NCBI RefSeq assembly: GCF_032884065.1
Contig: NC_088864.1
Location: 16,434,409 to 16,498,408 of the forward strand
DNA: 64,000 nucleotides
Direction: 5' to 3'
Source: Artemia franciscana
Lineage: Eukaryota; Arthropoda; Branchiopoda; Anostraca; Artemiidae
The notes below the pieces were generated by a model that was not told where the DNA came from, ran no database searches, and was given only the letters and a program-made list of their open reading frames with translations. This document shows, piece after piece, positions 3,946-61,256 of this stretch. Every line of letters begins with the position of its first letter. Position 1 is the stretch's first letter. The translations under genes and the position numbers were made by a program.

Positions 3946-4305
3946 CATTGCTTTGCTATGTTTCCGTTATTTGCCAGGGTACGCTAGTAAGTAGAATGTT
4001 TAGAATGTTTGTTAAGAAATCGGACATGTAATAAAAAAATTTCAGAGACAGAGATACTACCTGCAGGCTCATAGGGGATATATTAGAATCTGAGATAGGT
4101 TAAACAGGGTTTTTACCAAAGCCCAAGAGAGACAAGCTGGATTTTATTTCCAAACTCCACACAGACAAGCAAATACCCGCTCAGACACACGGACACCGAG
4201 AGAGCGAGAGACAAAAACAACTACAAACACACAGAGTCAGACACATGAACAAACAGAGATAGACGCAGAGACAAGCAAACACCCGCTCAGACACACGGGC
4301 ACAGA

Positions 4306-4363
<58 letters not shown>

Positions 4364-5059
4364 AACAACTGTTCAGACACACAGACACAGAGAAGAAATA
4401 CAAGTAGACATCTGCTCAGATACAGAGGCACAGAGAGAGAGAAAGAAACGCACACAAACACACAGATTCATGCATACAAACAGGCAAATACAGAAACGGG
4501 GACAAGCAAACACCCGCCCAGACACATGGGCACAAAGAGAAAGAGAGACAAGTAAACAGCTGCTCAGAAACACAGGTGCAGACACATAGAGAAAGAACAC
4601 CTACAAACCCACAAAGTCAGACACACAAACACACAGAAATAGACACGGGGACAAGCAATCATCCGCTCAGATACACAGACACAGTGAGAGAGACAAACAA
4701 ACATGTAGTCAGACACACAGACACAGAGAGAGAGAAGGAGAGAGAGAGAGAGAGAGATAAAGAGAGAAACAAAATCATCTAGAAACACACAGTCAGTCAG
4801 ATACACACACAAAGAGAAACAAGTAAAAAACCGCTCAGATACATTGGCACAGAGAGTGATAGAGACAAAAACACATACAAACACACAGATTCAGACCCAC
4901 AAACGCACTAGGACAGACAAGGAGACATTAAAACAGCCACTGAGACACACAAACACATAGAGAGGGAGAGAAAAAACATTTTGCAAACACATAAAGTCAT
5001 ACACCCAAACATACAAAGGTGCACATGGGGACAAGCAAACTCCCGCTCAAAAACATAGG

Positions 5060-5215
<156 letters not shown>

Positions 5216-6218
5216 AGAGACAAGTAGACAGCCACTCAGACACACAGGCACAGAGAGGGACAAAAACGCATACAAACGCACAGATTGTTACCTACAAACA
5301 GACAAATACAGATACAAGAAGAAGCAAATACCCACCCAGACACATAAGAACAGATAGACAGAGAGATAGAGAGAGAAAGAGAGAGAGAGAGAGAGGGAGA
5401 GAGAGAGAGAAGGAAAAAATCACTCAGTCAAACAGGCACAGAGAGAGAAACAAAAACACATACAGAAACACAGAGTGATATATTCCAACACAAGACACAG
5501 AAACATACGAACACCCACTCCAATACACAGGTAAACGAAAAGAGGCAAGCAAACAGTCAGTCTAACACTCAAGCACAGAGAGAAAAACAAGCAAAGACCT
5601 TCTCAGACACACCGACACAAAGAGTGAGAGAGAAAAAATACACACACAAATACAGAGTCAGAAGCACAGACACACAAAGACAGACACGGGGACAAGCAAA
5701 TATCGTGCTCAGACACATAAGTACAGAGAGAGAGAGAGAGAGAGAAGCAGATAGCCGCTCAGAAATACATATACAGAGAGAGATACAAAAAATACCTATA
5801 AACCCACAAAGACAGACACGGGGACAGGCAAACATTCGCTTAGACACACAGACACAGAGAAAGAGAGAGAGAAAACATACAGAAGTACAGAATCAGACAT
5901 TCAAACACGCAAAGACAGACACAAACACATGCAAACAATCACTCAGACACACAAGCATAGCGAGAGAGACAAGGAAATAGTCAGTCAAACACACAGGCAC
6001 AGAGAGAGAGAGAAGCAAACACCCGCTCAGACACACAAACACAAAAAGAAAGAGATTCAAAACACATACAAACACACAGAGTCAAAAATACAAATACACA
6101 AAGACAGACACGGGTAAAAGCATACATCACGCTCAGACACATAGGTAAAGAGTGAAAGACAGTGAGAGAGAGAGAGAGAGAGAAGCAAACAGCTGCTCAG
6201 ACATACAGGCACAGAGAG

Positions 6219-6313
<95 letters not shown>
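6219..6313. repeat. (TA)n microsatellite inside the minisatellite
   Basis: About 95 bp of alternating TA with one early G interruption. It replaces the GA segment of one minisatellite unit. The ACAGAGAGATATATA junction suggests a GA to TA slippage conversion. Confidence 0.95.
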
Positions 6314-6317
<4 letters not shown>

Positions 6318-6694
6318 AAAAATCCCAACAAACCCACAAAGACAGGTACGGAGACAAGCAAAAATCTGTTCAGACACACAGGCACAGAGAGAGACACAAA
6401 CAAATTCAAATCCACAGAATCTGACACACAAACACACAAATACAGACATGCGGACAAGCAAACATCAACCCAGACACACACGCACGGAGAGAAAGACAGA
6501 AACACATGCGAAAACACAAAGACAGACAACCAAACAACCGCTCTGACACACACACAGAGAGAGACATAAACACATACAAAAACACTGAGTCAGACACACA
6601 AACACATAAAGACAGACACAAGTACAAACAAACATCCGCTCAGACACATAGTTACAGTGTTTCTTCTTTGTTTTCTGCTGCCAAAGCTCTGAAA

Positions 6695-7670
6695 AATTCA
6701 GACATTGCCAGGTTTTACCATAAATTGACGTAATCAAAGCCTCGTAAATTTGAGCAATTAAGTATAAGTTAGCGTAATCAATGACATTCAACTTCATATT
6801 TCTTAGGATACGTTTTTCTCTTTCATTAATTCATTTTTATTAAAATGAACAGGAATTCTTCCGTACAGTAAATAGGCATTCATTTCCTCAACAACAAATC
6901 TTTACAACACTTTACAAGCTTTTGGGTCCGTATTTGAGTAAAATTTGAGCAAATAAGCATGAATTAATGTAAAAGAGACATCGCTTTATTTTTCTTAATA
7001 TATGTTTTTTCCTTTCATTAGTTCATTTTTAATTCTTCTTAAAGGCTCCATATTAGTCACATTTGTGATGTACCAGAAAATACTTTAAACTAAACTTTTA
7101 TAGGTCTTAAAGGAATTTGGAGATTGTCAGGTTTTAGGATAAATTGACACAATCAAAGCCCAGAAAATTTGAGCAATTAAGCATAAATTAACGTAATCAA
7201 AGACATATCACTTCATTTTTCTTAGGACATATTTTTTGTTTCATTGCTATATTTTTCTTAAAATGAATAGAAATTGTTCCGTATATAAAAGGGGCTGTCT
7301 TCTTCTCGAGACTTCGCTCTTTACAAGCTCTTGCGTCTAAATTTCGGTAAAATCTGAGCAATTAAGCCTAAATTGACGTAATCAAAGCCGTGTTGGATAA
7401 AATTTGAGGAATTAAGCATAAATAAATATGAATTAAGCAATTAAGCATAAATATAATTAAGCATAAATAAACTAAGAAAATTTGAGCAATTAAGCATAAA
7501 ATAAACTGTAAATAAAGACATACCACTTCATTTTTCTTAGGATATGAATTTTCTTTCATTAGTTCATTTTGAATTCCTCTTAAAGGCTCCATATTAGACG
7601 CGTTTTTGATAGTTCAAGAAAATACTTTGAAACTAAAACTTAATAGATCTTAAAGGAATTTGTACATATC
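6695..7670. repeat. Diverged tandem duplication, period ~430 bp
   Basis: The phrase TAAATTGACGTAATCAAAGCC followed by AATTTGAGCAATTAAGCATAA and CACTTCATTTTTCTTAGGA occurs near 6,720, 7,140 and again from 7,370. CTTAAAGGCTCCATATTAG occurs near 7,040 and 7,580. The third unit has an internal expansion of AATTAAGCATAAATA at 7,400-7,500. No coding potential. Confidence 0.75.
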
Positions 7671-7689
7671 AGGTTAAAAAACTATCAGA

Positions 7690-7995
7690 AAATAAATTTT
7701 AAAAAATAAGTTTTTTCCAACTGAAAGTAAGGAGCAACATTAAAACTCAAAACGAGCAGAAATTATTGAGTATATGAGGGGGGCCACCCCCTTGTCAATA
7801 CCCCGTCCTTTATGCTAATTTTTTGGTACTTTTAAAAGAGTTTTTTATTCTAATTAAACGGCCCTTGTGATTCAGGAGTCACTCTTAAAGAACTGGGAAA
7901 AATTTGACGAGAGGGTGACCCCCATTACATGCGTAACAATTTCTGTTCGTTTTAAGCTTTAATACTGCTCCTTACTTTCAGTTGAAAAAATTGTT
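7690..7995. mobile_element. Palindromic dispersed element (old copy)
   Basis: The left arm begins CAACTGAAAGTAAGGAGCAA and continues through AAAACGAGCAGAAATTATTG. The right arm ends GCTCCTTACTTTCAGTTG. The arms are inverted copies of about 90 bp with substantial mismatch, around a ~110 bp centre containing CTAATTAAACGGCCCTTGTG. It belongs to the family described at 58,981-60,724. No coding sequence. Confidence 0.85.
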
Positions 7996-8084
7996 GTTGT
8001 TTTTTAAATACACAAAGCCCACTTGGGTCTTTTGGCAGTGTTATTGTTCTGCCTATAACAAAAGAGATAATGTCACAGCAAAAT

Positions 8085-38329: not shown

Positions 38330-39600
38330 TTTGTCTTATAAAACTTAAAACGAACAAAAATTCCTATTTATATGAGAAAGCAGCCCCCCTCAACACCTCG
38401 CTATTGAAGCTAAAGTTTTTCGGCACTTTTAAAAAGTTTCTTTTTGTTCTAATTAAACGATTCTTGTGTTTCAGGAGTCGTTTTTAAGGAATTAAGGCAA
38501 AATTTAAACTTTAGCGTAAAGAGCAAGGTGTTGAGGAGGGTGACAACTCCCCTCATTTACGACATAATTTTGTTTATTTTAAGTCTTAATATTGCTCCTT
38601 ATTTTCAGATGAAAAACCTTTTTTAATTCAATTTCTGATCTTTTTTTTAATAATGCCATTAAATCCGGTTCATCTCCACGAAAAAACCAACGCCCGCGGA
38701 TATATCATCTGGACAATTAAATACCAGTGAAAATTACCCCGGACAATTATACTTAACATCCCCACGCGGAAAATTGAATCGGTAAAGAAAAAGCAAAACA
38801 TATAAAAACAAAATCGCATAGAAATTCGTGCAAATTCCACCAGCATAAAATTTCCCTGAAAAAGTCACCTCCTGGAAACTTTCCTCTCCATGAAAAATTC
38901 TCCCCGTGCAAAATCCCCCAGCAAAAAATTCGCCCTCCTCTCCCCATCCGAAAAATGTATACATACTTCCCCAAAACAAATACTATACGAAAACAATGGG
39001 CAAATTTTATAACTTAGACCTTTCCCCAGGGACTGCAGGGGTTTACGCTATCCCCAAAGACATAGTTATTGGTTCTTTCAACTATGCTGAACAAAATAGC
39101 TATCTCAGAATTTTTATCAGATGATTTTGGGAAAAAGTGGCGTGGGAGGGGGCGTAGTTACCCTCAATCTTTTTCGTCATTTAAAAAGAACACCATAGCT
39201 TTAATCTTCGTTCGAATGCGCCATGTCATGATGTTTTAGACCCATTGGGTCAATACCATCATCCCTGAAAAAAAAAATAAATAAACACGAATCCTTCTTC
39301 GCCAAAAAACTCAAAATTCCATATTTTAGCAGATAGGAGCTTGAAACATCTACAAAAGGGTTCTTTGATATGTTAATGTGTTATTTTCATTAAGATTCTT
39401 TGACTTTTACGGGGTGTTTCTCCTCTTCTTCAAAGAATCAGGCAAATTTTCTCAGGCTCGTAGCCTTTGATGGGTAATGAAACCTATATATTTGGAATCA
39501 GCACAATAAACCAATTCTTTTGATATATCTATTAGTATCGAAATTTCATTTTTTAGAGTTTCGGTTACTATTGGGTCACGTCACTCCTTTTACAGTTTCT
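38330..39600 (-). mobile_element. Composite hairpin element, minus orientation
   Basis: Read on the minus strand, the 5' module begins near 39,598 (GGAGTGACGTGACCCAATAG, AACCGAAACTCTAAAAAATG, TACGAGCCTGAGAAAATTTG, AACACCCCGTAAAAGTC). It ends in the region of CACGGATGC-type sequence near 39,280. A second module at 38,640-38,970 matches 47,340-47,650 (GGGAAATTTT / GGTGGAATTTGC). The terminal palindrome lies at 38,330-38,620 (arms with AAAACTTAAAACGAAC and ACCTTGCTCTTTACGCTAAA). It is non-coding and considerably diverged. Confidence 0.7.
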
Positions 39601-39841
39601 TACCCCGAACTGTTTGGAAACATGGCTGAGCCATATTAACGCTTCTTCACCATGATAAAAAATGTGGCCCTGATTTTTGCAATGAATTTTATGAAAATTC
39701 AACTAGGTGGGACAATTTGCGCAACTTTATCCAAAACTAGTGAAAGTAAGGCTATTTGAATTTCAAATTAGATGGATTCTAAGGAGTGTATAGATGCGCC
39801 ATGAATCGAATCTAAATTCAACGATTTGTCATTGTGCTCAG

Positions 39842-45579: not shown

Positions 45580-47960
45580 TAGTAAGGAGCGACCCAGCTC
45601 AATAGTAACCGAAACTCTAAAAAATGGAATTTTGATACCAATAGTTACATAAAAAAAATATATTTTAATGCTGATTTTAAATATATAACTTTCATCAAGA
45701 TTAGTCGTACCTATCAAATTTACGAGCCTGAGAAAATTTGCCTCATTTTAGAAAATAGGGGAAACACCCCCTAAAAGTCATACAATCTTAACGAAAATCA
45801 CACCATCAGATTCAGCGTATCAGAGAACCTTATTGTAGAAGTTTCAAGCTCCTATCTACAAAAATGTGTAATTTCGCATTTTTTGCCAGAAGACAAATCA
45901 CGGATGCGTGTTTATTAGTTTTTTTTTTTTCAGGGATGATCGTATCGACCCAGTGGTTCTAGAATGTCACGGGAGGGCTCAGTCTAACGGAAATGAAAAG
46001 TTCTAGTGCCCTTTTTAAGTGACCAAAAAAATTGGAGGGCACCTAGGCCCCCTCCCACGCTCATTTTCCCCCAAAGTCATCGGATCAAAATTCTGAGTTA
46101 GCCATTTTATTCACCGTAGTCGAAAAACTCACAACTATGTTTTTGGGGACGACTTACTACAACGCAGTCCCCGTGGGAGGGGTTGCAAGTTACAAACTAT
46201 GACCTGTATTTACGTGTAGTAATGGTTACTGGGAAGTGTATGGACGTTTTCAGGGGGATTTTTTTGGTTTGGGAGGGAGAGTTGAGGTGGGGGGGGTACG
46301 TGGGAGGATCTTTCCATGGAAGAACTTCTCAGGCAGGATTTTTTTGCATTATTTAAAAAAAAATGGAAAAATAAAAGTGAGAAGTTTTTTTGCTAATTAA
46401 ATTGAGGAGCAGCATTAAAACTTAAAACGAACAGAAATTATTGCGCATATGAGGGGTTTACCTCCTCGTAATACCACGCTCTTTACGCTACAGTATTTTC
46501 AGTAATTTAAATTATTTATTCTACGGCCTTTGTGATTCAAGGGTCATTCTTAAGGAATTGGGACAGAATTTAAGCTTTAGTGTAAAGAGCGAGGTATCGA
46601 CGAGGGGTGAACTCCCTCATATACGCAATAAAAATATACGAATATAGAAGTTCGTTACGTAAGTTAATTCGTAAATTACGTATATATTTTAATAATGAAA
46701 ATGTTCGTAAAACAATTAAAAGTTCTAGTTGCCTTTTTAAGTAATCAAAAAATTGGAGGGCAACTAGGCTTCCCCCCTCTCTCCTTTTTTCTCAAAATCT
46801 TCCGATTAAAACTATGAGAAAGCCAATTAGCCAAAAAGAAAATATAATGCAAATTTCGTTTTAATTATTTATGTGCGGAGAGCCAAGATCAAAACATGCA
46901 TGAATTAAAAAACGTCCAGAAATTAAATAAAAAAACAAGTTTTTTTTTAAATGAAAGTAAGGAGTGACATTAAAACTTAAAACGAACACAAATTACTCCG
47001 TATATGAAAGGGGATTTTCCTCCTCAACGCCCCGCTCTTTCAGCTAAAGTTTTTTACTGTTTTAAAAAGTAGAGTTAAGAGAAAGAGTCAAACTTTAGCG
47101 GACATTAGAAGTTCTAGTAGCCTTTTCAAGTGATCAAAAAAGTCGGAGGGCAACCTGGCCCCCTTTTGCGCCCATTTTTTCTCTAAGTCGTCAGATCAAA
47201 ATTTTGAGATAGCCATTTTGCTCATCAGACCCAATAACTATGCCTTTGGATATAGCGTGACCCCCCCCATCAGCCCCAAGGGAAAGGCCTTTAAGTTATA
47301 AAATTTGCCCATTGCTTACACATAAAATTTGTTATTGTGAAGTATGTATACAATTTCGAGTTGGGGGGGATATTTCCGAAAGCTGTTTTTCCACGGGAAA
47401 ATTTTCCATGGGGGTGAAGTTTCCGAGGTGGAGGAAATTATACACTGGGGGAATTTGCCGGAATTCCTATACAATATTTTTTTTTATAAGTCTTGGTTTC
47501 TCTTTTCCGCCTCAATTTTACGCGGAGAGTTGTTAAGGGTAGTTGCCCGGGGTATATTTTCATCAGGATTGAATTGTCTAGATGATATTTCCGTGGGAAT
47601 AAGAATTAATCCGTGGAGGTGGGGCCAGATTTTCCGGTGTTATTTAAAAAACGGTCTGAAATTAAAAAAAAAGTTTTTCAACTGAAAGTAAGGAACAACA
47701 TTATAACAAAACGAATATAACTTGCCCCCTCCTCCACACCTCACTCTTTCCACTAAAGTTTGAGTTTTGTCCCAATTCTTTAAGAACGACTCCTGAAACA
47801 CAAGGGTCATTTAATTAGAACAATAGGAAAGTTTTTAAAAGTACTAAAAACTTTAGCACAAAGAGCGAAGTGTTGAGGAGGGACAATCCGCTTCAAATAC
47901 GTAATAATTTCTGTTCGTTCTAAGTTTTAAGAATAAAAGTTTTTTTTAAATATATTTAAT
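45580..47960 (+). mobile_element. Composite hairpin element, rearranged mosaic copy
   Basis: Starts TAGTAAGGAGCGACCCAGCT and runs collinear with the copies at 56,525 and 58,981 through the CGTATCGACCCAGTGG, GGAGGGCACCTAGGCC, GATCAAAATTCTGAG, CAGTCCCCGTGGGAGGGG and middle-palindrome modules, to a terminal left arm at 46,945-47,050. There it breaks at AACTTTAGCG|GACATTAG and continues with a second TTCTAGTAGCC / GGAGGGCAACC module (47,100-47,290), the 47,340-47,650 module and another palindrome (47,660-47,950). Two elements seem to have been joined or one rearranged. Open frames here are not genes. Confidence 0.75.
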
Positions 47961-48334
47961 TTCACACAAAAGAGCAACACCGCTAACTATGCAAAAGTAA
48001 TAAGCCTATCATTTTTCATTTTTTGCACCGATTCAATCCAAGAGCTTTATTAATTGGCTTTAGATCCTGTCTACATTCACTCTGTTCTAGTCTACAGTCT
48101 ATTTTGATTTGTCTCCTTTCAATCGGACATTTTAAAACTCCCCAAGGATTCAAGAAGGGGAGATATGGGTAAAATGAGTGCTTTTATCTTGAAAGTTGAT
48201 TTAAGGGAAATGAAACTTTCACAGATGGGTTAGTGAAGAAAAGTTTCAATGGACAAAAATATAGGCTTGCTTAAATTATATACTCTTTAGAATTTCAATA
48301 GTGCGACTATTTTCTTCTTATTAGTTATAAGTAT
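47961..48334. other. Non-coding sequence
   Basis: Nothing recognised. Confidence 0.5.
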
Positions 48335-56366: not shown

Positions 56367-56524
56367 AAAGGTCGTATCTGATATTTTGAATCTCCTGAAA
56401 CAGTTGGCAAAAAGGCTTCATTGAGACACGCCTAAAGGTCGTATAAGGCATTTTGAATGTCCTGAAACCATCGCCAAAAACCGCTTGCTGAGATAGCCTA
56501 AAGGTCGTATCTGACATTTCAAAT

Positions 56525-58093
56525 CAAACGAACTGTAGTAAAGAGCGACCCGGCTCAATAGTAACCGAAACTCTAAAAAATGGAGTTTCATCAAGATCAG
56601 TTATACCCATCAAAAGTTACGAGCCTGAGAAAATCTTAACGAACAATCTTAACGAAAATCACACCATCAGATTCAGCGTATCAGAGAACCTTGTTGTAGA
56701 AGTTTCAAGCTCATATCTACAAAAATGTGGAATTTCGCATTTTTTGTCAGAAGACAGATCACGGATGCGCGTTTATTTGTTTTCTTGTTTTTTTTTTGTT
56801 TTTTTTTTTTCCCCAGGGGTGATCGTATCGACTGAGTGGTCCTAGAATCTTGCAAGAGGGCTCATTCTAACGGAAAATAAAAGTTCCAGTTCCTTTTTAA
56901 AGTGAAAAAAAATTGGAGGGCACCTAGGCCCCCTCCCACCCTCATTTTCCCAAAGTCACCAGATCAAAATTCTAAGATGCCATTTTATTCACCATAGTCG
57001 AAAAACCTAATAACTATATCTTTGGAGACGACTTACTCCCCCGCAGTCCCCGTGGGAGGGGCTGCAAGTTGAAAACTTTGACCTGTGTTTACATATAGTA
57101 ATGGTTACTGGGAAGTGTACAGACGTTTTCAGGGGGATTTTTTGGTTTAGGGGGGAGGATTGAGGGGGGGTTACGTAGGAGGATATTTCCATGGAGAGAC
57201 TTCTCATTGTAAAAGAAAATTTCAATGAAGGGGGCGCAGGATTTTCTAGATTTATTTGAAAAAACAATGAAAAAATAAATATGAAAAGTTTTTTCAACTG
57301 AAAGTAATTAGCAGCATTAAAACTTAAAACGAACAAAAATCATTACGCATGTGAGGGGTTTACCTCCTCGTTATACCTCACTCTTTCCGCTAAAGTATTT
57401 TTAGTAATTTCAACTATTTATTCTACGGCCTTTGTGATTCAGAGGTCATTCTTAAGGAATTGGGACAAAATCTAAGCTTTAGTGTAAAGAGCGAGGTATT
57501 GACGAGGGTTGAACCCCCTCATATACGCAATAAAAACATACGAATATAGAAGTTCGTTACGTAAGTTTAATTCGTAAGTTACGTATACTTTTTACCAATG
57601 AAAACGTTTGTAAAAAATTAAAAGTTCTAGTTGCTTTTTTAAGTAATCAAAAACTTGGAGGGCAACTAGGCCTCCTCCTTCGCTTCTTTTTTCTCAAAAT
57701 CTTCCAATTAATTGCAATTAATTAATATGCAAATTTTGTTTTATTTTTTTTGTGCGGAGAGCCAAGATCAAAACATGCATTAATCCAAAAACGTCCAGAA
57801 ATAAAAAAAAACAATAAGTTTTTGTAACGGTAAGTAAGGAGCGACATTAAACCTTAAAAAGAACAGAAATTACTCCGTATATGAAAGGGACTTTTCCTCC
57901 TCAACGCCCCGTTCTTTACTCTAAGGTTTCTTACTGTTTTAAAAAGTAGAGTTAAGAAAAAGGGTCAAACTTTAGCGTAAAGAGCGAGGCATGGAGGAGG
58001 AAAAGTCCCTTTCATATACGGAGTAATTTCTGTTCGTTTTAAGTTTTAATGTCGCTCCTTACTTACCGTTACAAAAACTTGTTTCTTTCATTT
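56525..58093 (+). mobile_element. Composite hairpin element, near-complete copy
   Basis: Begins CAAACGAACTGTAGTAAAGA (part of the 5' hairpin arm is missing) and ends TTTCATTT, flanked by AAT on both sides (56,522-56,524 and 58,094-58,096). Module order is the same as in the 58,981 copy: GACCCGGCTCAATAGTAACC, a T-rich tract near 56,790, GGAGGGCACCTAGGCCCCCT, CAGTCCCCGTGGGAGGGGCT, a middle palindrome at 57,290-57,530, a second GGAGGGCAACTAGGCC module, and a terminal palindrome. No coding capacity, so it is non-autonomous. Confidence 0.85.
57816..58080. repeat. Terminal palindrome of the 56,525 element, 114-bp arms
   Basis: Arms 57,816-57,929 and 57,967-58,080 are inverted copies with about eight mismatches. 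Both arms carry the copy-specific variants GTAACGGTAAGTAAGG and AAGGGACTTTTCCTCCTC. Confidence 0.9.
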
Positions 58094-58113
58094 AATCTCC
58101 AGAAACAACTGCG

Positions 58114-58901: not shown

Positions 58902-59930
58902 ACTTTAGGGGGAAACCATGGTTCCCCGGGTTTCAAGAAACGATTGAAAAGATTCAGATAATTTCTTGTTTTGAAATAATCAAACAGTTCGTGGTAACGA
59001 ACTGTAGTAAGGAGCGACCCGGCTCAATAGTAACCAAAACTCTAAAGAATTGAATTTTGATACCAATAGCTGCATCAAAAGAATCGCATTTTAATGCTGA
59101 TTTTAAATATATAAGTTTCATCAAGTTTAGTCCTACCCATCAAAAGTTACGAGCCGGAGAAAATTTGCCTTATTTATGAAAATAGGTGGAAACACCCCCT
59201 AAAAGTCGTAGGATCTTAACGAAAATGACACAATCAGATTCAGCGTATCAGAGAACCCTACTGTAGAAGTTTCAAGCTCCTATCAATAAAAATGTGGAAT
59301 TTTGTATTTTTTGCCAGAAGACAAATCACGGGTGCGTGTTCATTTGTTTTTTTTTTTTTTTTTTTTTTTTTTCCAGGGGTCATCGTATCGACCAAGTGGT
59401 CCTAGAATGTCGTAAGAGGGCTCATTCTAACGGAAATGAAAAGTTTTAGTGCCCTTTTTAAGTGACCAAAAAATTTGGAGGGCGTCTAGGCCCCCTCCCA
59501 CGCTCATTTTTTCCCAAAGTCAACGGATCAAAATTTTGAGATAGCCATTTTGTTCAGCATAGTCGAAAACCATAATAACTATGTCTTTGGGGATGACTTA
59601 CTCCCCCACAATCCCTGGGGGAGGGGCTGCAAGTTACAAACTTTGACCAGTGTTTACATATAGTAATGGTTATTGGGAAGTGTACAGACGTTTTCAGGGG
59701 GATTTTATTTTATTTGGGGGTGGGGCTGAGGAGAGGGGGCTATGTTGGAGGATCTTTCCTTGGAGGAATCTGTCATGGGGGAAGAAAAATTCAATGACAA
59801 GGGCGCAGGATTCTCTAGCATTACTATAAGAAAACAATGAAAAATAAACATGAAAACGTTTTTTCAAATGAAAGGAAGAAGTAGCATTAAAACTTAAAAC
59901 GAACAGAGATTATTACGCATATGAGGGGTT

Positions 59931-60008
59931 CTAAAAATACTTTAGCATAAAGAGCGAGGTATTTAGGAGGAGATAAATACCTTGCTCTTTATGCTAAAGT
60001 ATTTTTAG
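59931..60008. repeat. Nested 35-bp inverted repeat inside the composite element
   Basis: CTAAAAATACTTTAGCATAA ... at 59,931-59,965 is inverted at 59,974-60,008 with one mismatch and an 8-nt loop. The equivalent site in the 56,525 copy lacks this duplication. Confidence 0.9.
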
Positions 60009-60436
60009 TAATTTCAACTATTTATTCTACGGCCTTTCTGATTCAGGGGTCATTCGTAAAGAATTGGGACAAAACTTACGATTTAGTGTAAAGAGCGAGG
60101 TATTAACGAGGGTACAAACCCCCTCGTATACATAATAAAAATATAAGGTTATGAAAGTTTGTTACGTAAGTTAATTCTTAAGTTACGCATATTTTTTACT
60201 AATAAAAACGTTCGTTAAAATTAAAAGTTCTAGTTGCCTTTTTAAGTAACCGAAAAATTACAGGGCAACTAGGCCTCCTTCCTCACCCCTTATTTCTCAA
60301 AATCATCTGATCAAAACTAAGAGAAAGCCATTTAGCCAAAAAAGGAATTAATATGCAAATTTCATTTTAATAATTTATGTGCGGAGAGCCAAAACCAAAC
60401 ATGCATTAATTCAAAAACGTTCAGAAATTAAATAAA

Positions 60437-60717
60437 AAAAAACTAATTTTTTTAGCTGAAAGTAAGGAGCGACATTAAAACTTAAAACGAACAGAAATTA
60501 CTCCGTATATGAAATGGGTTGTCCCCTCCACAATCCCTCGCTCTTTACGCTAAAGTTTGACCTTTTGCCACAATTCTACTTTTTAAAACAATTAAAAGCT
60601 TTAGCGTAAAGAGCGAGGGATTGTGGAGGGGACAACCCATTTCATATACGGAGTAATTTCTGTTCGTTTTAAGTTTTAATGTCGCTCCTTACTTTCAGCT
60701 AAAAAAATTAGTTTTTT
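60437..60717. repeat. Perfect terminal palindrome, two 119-bp arms
   Basis: Arms 60,437-60,555 and 60,599-60,717 are exact inverted copies separated by 43 nt. The similarity continues imperfectly outward through ATTAAATAA / TTATTTAAT. Landmarks are TTAGCTGAAAGTAAGGAGCG, ACTCCGTATATGAAATGGGT and CTCGCTCTTTACGCTAAAG. Confidence 0.95.
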
Positions 60718-61256
60718 GTTATTTAATATTCATAAAGCTTCAGTAGGACATAGCAGCCCAAAGTTTGTTCTCACACTTCACGATCTCAGAGAGAATCGTA
60801 CGGCTGAAAAAAATAAATAAAAAACAATGTAACAAAAAAAAAAAAAAATCAAATAAATAAAAAACCCTGTGGCACAAAAATAAAATAAATAAAAATCAGT
60901 CTCAGGAAAAAGCAAATAAATGTTTTGAACACTCATACTTTAGGGGGAAACCATGGTTCCCTGGGTTTCAAGAAATGATTGAAAAGATTCAGATAATTTC
61001 TTGTTTTGAAACAATATTCATAAAGCTTCAGGAGGACATAGCAACCCAAAGTTTATTCTCACACCTCACGATCTCAGAGAGAATCGCGCGGCTAAAAAAA
61101 ATAAATAAAAATCAATGTAACAAAAAAATATCATAAAAATAAAAATAAAAAAAATAAATAAAAATAAATCAATCAAATAAATAAAAAACCCTGCGGCAAA
61201 AAAAATAAAATAAAAATCAGTCTCAGGAAAATGCAATTAAATGTTTTGAACACTCA

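Follow-up and report, generated by a model that had tools for sequence, protein, structure and literature searches.

Arm homogenisation and inversion of a terminal palindrome in Helitron-like elements of Artemia franciscana

In a family of Helitron-like elements of Artemia franciscana the two arms of a long palindrome at the 3′ end have been homogenised within source lineages, its spacer or almost the entire palindrome has been inverted recurrently, and both changes are found at the terminal palindrome only and not at the hairpin that lies inside the same elements. The reading that we consider probable is that arms are homogenised, and occasionally inverted, in source copies, most likely by template switching of DNA polymerase, and that the confinement to the terminus comes from transposition favouring an intact 3′ hairpin. 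The analysis started from one window, i.e., the whole analysed stretch of 64,000 nucleotides, and was extended to related loci of the genome.

The features of the window are collected in Table 1. Copies A and B have a layout in common, that is composed of a 5′ head, a first unit with a decayed hairpin, a second unit and the terminal palindrome of about 300 bp, with arms of about 120–130 bp and, in both copies, a spacer of 37 bp; in an older family the spacer is about 80–90 bp. When folded as single-stranded DNA (301 nt), the terminal palindrome reaches −152.9 kcal/mol, compared with −26.3 ± 4.0 in 100 shuffles. The base directly 3′ of copy A (60727) is a host T, and for copy B the neighbouring tandem repeat acts as its empty site. 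The only stop-to-stop frames of at least 100 aa in copy B are of 117 and 110 aa. Near the 5′ end of copy A a short palindrome, CAGTTCGT-GGTA-ACGAACTG (58985–59004), adjoins the subterminal repeat and is mostly absent from copy B. In the three-unit tandem of copy C another unit starts at 47099, directly after the truncated second hairpin, which looks as if units get added or 3′ ends read through. At a genomic locus, L116, a partial second spacer and right arm (442–592 of the locus) stand in tandem after the hairpin, which suggests repeated hairpin units. A long run of AG/CA-rich tandem repeats occupies positions 4000–6650 of the window, where A exceeds T with a skew of 0.39 (4001–8000).

Table 1. 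Helitron-like copies and related features of the window, with the basis of each assignment
Feature	Position	Strand	Basis
Copy A, non-autonomous Helitron-like element of 1747 bp, complete	58980..60726	+	sharp 5′ TC and TTTAA|T 3′ end common to related insertions; empty-site paralog
Copy A, terminal palindrome, left arm	60427..60558	+	complementarity and arm alignment
Copy A, spacer, orientation O1	60559..60595	+	aligned to spacer of copy B in reverse complement (score 39 versus 8)
Copy A, terminal palindrome, right arm, extending to the element 3′ end	60596..60727	-	complementarity and arm alignment
Copy A, 5′ subterminal repeat GTAAGGAGCGAC	59007..59018	+	inverse in right arm at 60681-60692; read from sequence
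Copy A, internal decayed hairpin (unit 1)	59842..60131	+	diverged arms, spacer about 75-80 bp; side-specific pattern
Nested 35-bp fold-back within the copy A internal left arm	59931..60008	+	97% complementary
Copy B, element	56524..58095	+	junctions compared with neighbouring tandem repeat
Copy B, terminal palindrome, left arm	57802..57929	+	complementarity and arm alignment
Copy B, spacer, orientation O2, inverted versus copy A	57930..57966	-	alignment
Copy B, terminal palindrome, right arm	57967..58094	-	complementarity and arm alignment
Copy B, internal decayed hairpin (unit 1)	57275..57533	+	alignment
Copy C and downstream, three tandem units	45580..47965	+	5′ boundary approximate
Copy C, second hairpin: left arm and spacer kept, O2, right arm absent	46930-47098		alignment
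Copy C, third unit, ending in a long-spacer hairpin, O1	47664-47945		alignment
Older element with one unit: head, body and a single long-spacer hairpin (O1 as read along the element)	38339..39618	-	alignment
Older long-spacer hairpin, arms partly matched (O2 if element on +)	7701..7992	+	alignment
Empty site: paralog of both copy A flanks, insertion absent	60935..61110	+	sequence comparison

The earlier note on this DNA had described the arms of copy A (its 58,981 element) as identical over 119 bp and those of copy B (its 56,525 element) as sharing other variants, and both descriptions were borne out. Copy A has an uninterrupted 119-base run of identity and its arms are 98% complementary over 132 nt, and both arms of copy B carry AACGGTAAG and AGGGACTTTTCCTCCTC, that differ from copy A. 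The arms of copy B are only 90% complementary, with a longest identical run of 42, and this mismatch is partly side-specific variation common to many copies of the B family and not decay alone. When the terminal hairpins of A and B were compared, the claim that arms match within a copy and differ between copies held as well, with 15 within-copy, 0 same-side and 0 cross sites, of which about 13 are solid (12 substitutions and 1 gap), since two are columns in which the gap results from B having been trimmed unevenly, and among which neighbouring sites may be single events. Transversions account for 7 of the 12 solid two-arm substitutions and one column is a gap, which argues against stepwise compensation via wobble pairs. 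The internal hairpin shows the opposite pattern, the ratio of within-copy to same-side sites being 2:34 for A and B, 4:34 for A and C, and 0:49 for B and C. The older copies named in the earlier note have diverged arms: the hairpin at 7.7 kb is 82% complementary over 87 nt (80% identical in arm alignment) and that at 47.66 kb is 68% identical.

Related loci were taken from one draft assembly by hairpin similarity, as the best 40 of 732 candidates for the copy A query, of 4929 for copy B, of 741 for locus L027 (a flipped form) and of 5310 for the C3-type hairpin; 40, 30, 20 of 40 and 20 of 40 loci, respectively, were used. The A, B and L027 sets together gave 89 orientable loci, L060 being dropped as not orientable. 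The duplicates L007 and L030 were left out of the age test, the consensus arms, the re-pairing shuffle and the trimmed nearest-arm count, and were retained in the orientation, untrimmed nearest-arm and variant-carrier counts, while L114 was left out of the C3-type consensus comparison. L003 and L007 have identical flanks, on the unplaced contig C428 versus C19, and are perhaps an uncollapsed haplotype; L029 and L030, also with identical flanks, are a local duplication on C10.

At the level of families the arms are matched. When consensus arms were made for family A (37 copies), B (26), G (6) and C3 (19), left equals right at 97.5–99.2% (120/121, 117/120, 120/121 and 119/121), the left and right arms are sisters in a tree for 4/4 families, and left arms do not group apart. 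The six pairs of families differ at 4–14 within-family sites in the terminal consensus arms, with 0 side and 0 cross sites, and the internal hairpin consensus of A versus B gives 0 within and 40 side sites. Left and right arms are thus sisters in the family consensuses and the two window copies, as the earlier note expected for most young copies, but not in single copies within a family. After trimming of edges (87 loci), of 174 arms only 3 had their own partner as the strictly nearest arm, in 71 it shared the first place with others, and in 100 an arm of another copy was nearer; with untrimmed edges it was nearest in 1 of 89 left arms. The ties are mainly in the A family, in which the arms do not differ within or between copies.

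Across the 89 loci, variants found in a single copy are carried by both arms versus one arm in a ratio of 3:78, those in 2–3 copies 12:69, in 4–10 copies 9:43 and in more than 10 copies 423:69, i.e., family-defining variants alone reliably sit on both arms. Among eight mid-frequency variants five lie at edges or are single C>T sites, for which repeated mutation is plausible, while those at columns 101 and 106 are common to copies of the same family. Homogenisation is incomplete, since family B has kept side-specific differences at column 102 (16 copies) and column 106 (21 copies), in each case on the left arm alone. When arms were shuffled between copies of a family, the number of discordant cells rose from 224 to a mean of 303, the lowest of 200 shuffles being 274, a comparison in which kinship of copies is a confounder. 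The suggested relation between arm identity and copy age did not appear, as there was no within-family correlation in A (n = 38, rho 0.20, p 0.23) or B (n = 27, rho −0.24, p 0.23), among loci picked by hairpin similarity. Column 98 has G on both arms in 17 loci and A on both arms in 38, and mixed states occur in L039 and in L029 with its duplicate L030, where the left arm has A and the right arm G, and in L079, where G is on the left and A on the right. From their sequences these mixed states read as a change of one arm that was later copied to the other, repeated mutation being the less simple alternative. Taken together, the arm-to-arm copying proposed in the earlier note stands for element lineages, on the strength of the four matched consensuses, the one-arm intermediates and the two-arm transversions and gap, but not as a routine event in each copy, since 78 of 81 single-copy variants are one-armed. 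The one-armed rare variants and the few arms nearest to their own partner therefore place homogenisation in source lineages, before amplification.

The spacers of copies A and B are inverted relative to each other, which was absent from the earlier note. Relative to the left flank, the A query gave 39 loci in O1 and 1 in O2, the B query 26 in O2 and 3 in O1 (29 orientable) and the L027 query 17 in O2 and 3 in O1, while C3-type loci were O1 in 20/20; the loci being picked by hairpin similarity in one assembly, flip frequencies are not to be read as rate estimates. A direct case is provided by L043 (O2, on C11) and L047 (O1, on C19), in which 1162 of 1188 upstream positions match, the downstream sequence agrees at 97.5% over 398 bases, and between these collinear flanks almost the entire palindrome is reversed (at least 250 bp, with one mismatch). 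Side-marked arm variants have swapped sides along with the inversion. The 3′ flank common to both loci, which resembles the head of another element copy, makes the two loci products of a larger composite or of a duplication, as though such composites moved or were duplicated as one. A tree of 79 element bodies requires at least 8 orientation changes, several of them at weak nodes. The internal loop, in contrast, is unflipped in all 67 loci that have one (2 loci have none).

On sequence grounds, the elements resemble non-autonomous Helitron-like transposons, neither the Helitron nor the Helentron definition being fully matched; Helitrons constitute 8.81% of the Artemia franciscana genome (PMC11492255). 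The 5′ TC is present in 28 of the 30 A-query loci scored for their ends (two duplicate pairs are among them, and the 25-base search string itself starts with TC), as well as in copy B and the 39.6-kb copy, the 9.76-kb copy having TT. The host base before TC in the 28 loci is A in 20, G in 6 (L029/L030 being counted twice) and T in 2, and at the 3′ end TTTAA is followed by T in 30/30. Junctions of separate insertions have no direct repeat, although the two empty sites alone would also permit a 3-bp AAT duplication. Canonical Helitrons such as Helraiser likewise have a 5′ TC and a 3′ hairpin, and their preference for insertion between A and T with no visible target duplication may apply here too, but their 3′ end is CTRR, their hairpin of 16–20 nt lies 11 nt inside the terminus and A always precedes the 5′ end (PMC4778049; PMC4067079). 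The A-query loci have no CTRR, the end being TTAA (CTAA was found in the 43.2-kb fragment only), and in place of the small palindrome they carry one of about 300 nt, which takes in the 3′ end itself. The Helentron-derived HINE/DINE-1 elements are similar in their subterminal inverted repeats (11–15 bp there, 12 bp in copy A), the short palindrome beside the 5′ repeat, the 3′ stem-loop and the repeated central units, yet they insert between T and T and have stems of 5–11 bp (PMC4067079; PMC2374699), while here A or G stands before the 5′ end in 26/28 loci and the stem is about 130 bp. The foldback transposons Galileo and Tetris also have long inverted repeats and a fold-back structure, but there the inverted repeats flank the whole element and target duplications occur (PMC4168063; PMC4079207), whereas here the palindrome is at one end only and the two ends have just short subterminal repeats in common. 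A possible homogenisation of tandem repeats internal to the TIRs was described for Tetris (PMC4079207), and the conversion terms looked for do not occur in the Galileo paper (PMC4168063). The absence of a repeat at junctions of separate insertions speaks against a TIR transposon with target duplication, and that of TTAA from the empty sites against a TTAA-target transposon; both were rejected. Rfam gave no match at gathering score, and exact arm or 5′ patterns had no match in viral_contigs or genome_contigs.

According to the model that we favour, one arm of the terminal palindrome would repeatedly be copied onto the other in source copies through DNA-polymerase template switching between the arms, with an occasional inversion of the spacer or almost the entire palindrome. 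A homogenised source would then amplify and its daughter copies would inherit matched arms, which after insertion would mutate independently. Transposition would favour sources with an intact 3′ hairpin and thereby confine the matching to the terminal palindrome, and a hairpin left inside the element would lose this maintenance and decay. In yeast, template switching between inverted repeats leads to both arm homogenisation and spacer inversion (PMC8604942), and both features are present in the Artemia franciscana palindromes. New fold-backs arise in the same way (PMC8604942; for RNA hairpins PMC8794818). For rRNA hairpins an enrichment is reported of inversions of just the loop and of multiple compensatory changes, but not of arm change combined with loop inversion (PMC8794818). 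Unlike these cases, with arms up to 16 bp, inverted spacers of 2–5 bp with 2–5 substitutions and arms already perfect in 9/10 genes in yeast, and short loops in rRNA (PMC8604942; PMC8794818), the arms described here are of about 120 bp, inversions span from 37 to more than 250 bp, the family is mobile and the terminal palindrome alone is affected. Arms that change in concert are also known from long, perfect inverted repeats of nematomorph mitochondria, but these repeats lie in coding mitochondrial genes and not in mobile elements, and spacer flips are not noted in the available part of that report (PMC6649704). A nested 35-bp fold-back, which is fixed in family A (39/40 A-query loci, 1/29 B-query loci), indicates that snap-back copying occurs in the DNA of these elements. 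As to the confinement, C3-type terminal hairpins have matched consensus arms with spacers of about 80–90 bp and internal hairpins with similar spacers are unmatched, which points to terminal position, and hence to transposition or selection on the 3′ terminator, as the likely cause.

We infer template switching in preference to homologous recombination between arms, in which non-crossover events would convert the arms and crossovers would invert the spacer or palindrome core, as in large mammalian palindromes. Since the inversions are far larger than in yeast (at least 250 bp in L043/L047), recombination fits them as well, and about 120 near-identical arm bases could suffice for it. However, a spacer of 37 bp would give scant room for pairing two arms of one molecule, and the nested fold-back of family A requires snap-back or switching and not a crossover, so that we regard recombination as an unlikely contender, even though conversion is known from the palindromes of Y and X (PMC8981503). 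A still less probable course is that renewal is coupled to transposition: a single-stranded rolling-circle intermediate would snap back at the terminal palindrome, one arm would template the other and the hairpin would sometimes be resolved flipped. The restriction of matching and flipping to the terminal palindrome would follow from it, the matched C3-type arms are in agreement with it, and Helraiser transposition forms circles with the 3′ hairpin as a stop signal, but its circles form also without the hairpin (PMC4778049). Hairpins that flip-flop as in parvoviruses yield both orientations each round in similar numbers. Against this background the orientation skew of 39:1 and 26:3, together with the few near-identical flipped loci (among the matches listed for L027, a single further locus reaches 99% and three reach 98%), makes flipping in every round look unlikely, and it is not decisive, as the lists are of best matches picked by hairpin.

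Explanations that dispense with arm-to-arm copying fare considerably worse. Each family palindrome could have been made once by fold-back in a separate source, the flipped forms being assembly errors, and indeed fold-back duplication does happen in these elements and the assembly is a scaffolded draft (contig N50 383 kb; PMC11492255). This is very improbable given that the four families are related, have homologous arms and contain spacers of either orientation, that mixed-arm intermediates exist, and that the inversion in L043/L047 carries arm markers along. Least credible of all is selection for pairing alone, with arms that mutate independently and compensatory changes selected because the 3′ hairpin is needed. 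Compensatory mutations were proposed by Yang and Barbash for the DINE-1 stem (PMC2374699) and would agree with the fact that only the terminal hairpin remains paired, but the 119-base identity, the transversions and the gap column speak against it, and selection neither inverts a spacer nor transfers arm markers, so that the inversions already disfavour it.

Arm homogenisation and spacer inversion as a process are already known. What is new is the size of the palindrome, the confinement to the terminus and the flips of whole palindromes in a Helitron-like family; among the open-licence papers searched no report was recognised of spacer inversion or concerted evolution of a hairpin at a transposon end. 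It has long been asked how an extended hairpin can remain paired when its sequence changes, and the usual answer is compensatory mutation. In the Artemia franciscana family, which amounts to a natural experiment, the copying explanation becomes measurable: candidate copies run into the hundreds, a control hairpin with unmatched arms is part of the same molecules, and there are both intermediates with mixed arms and direct inversions. A tree inferred from palindromic ends of transposons can be misleading and calls for caution. If renewal were coupled to transposition, the element would have a built-in repair of its own terminator, and a rolling-circle transposon would include a parvovirus-like hairpin step. 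More generally, the findings suggest that copying from arm to arm can preserve the integrity of rolling-circle-like transposon ends.
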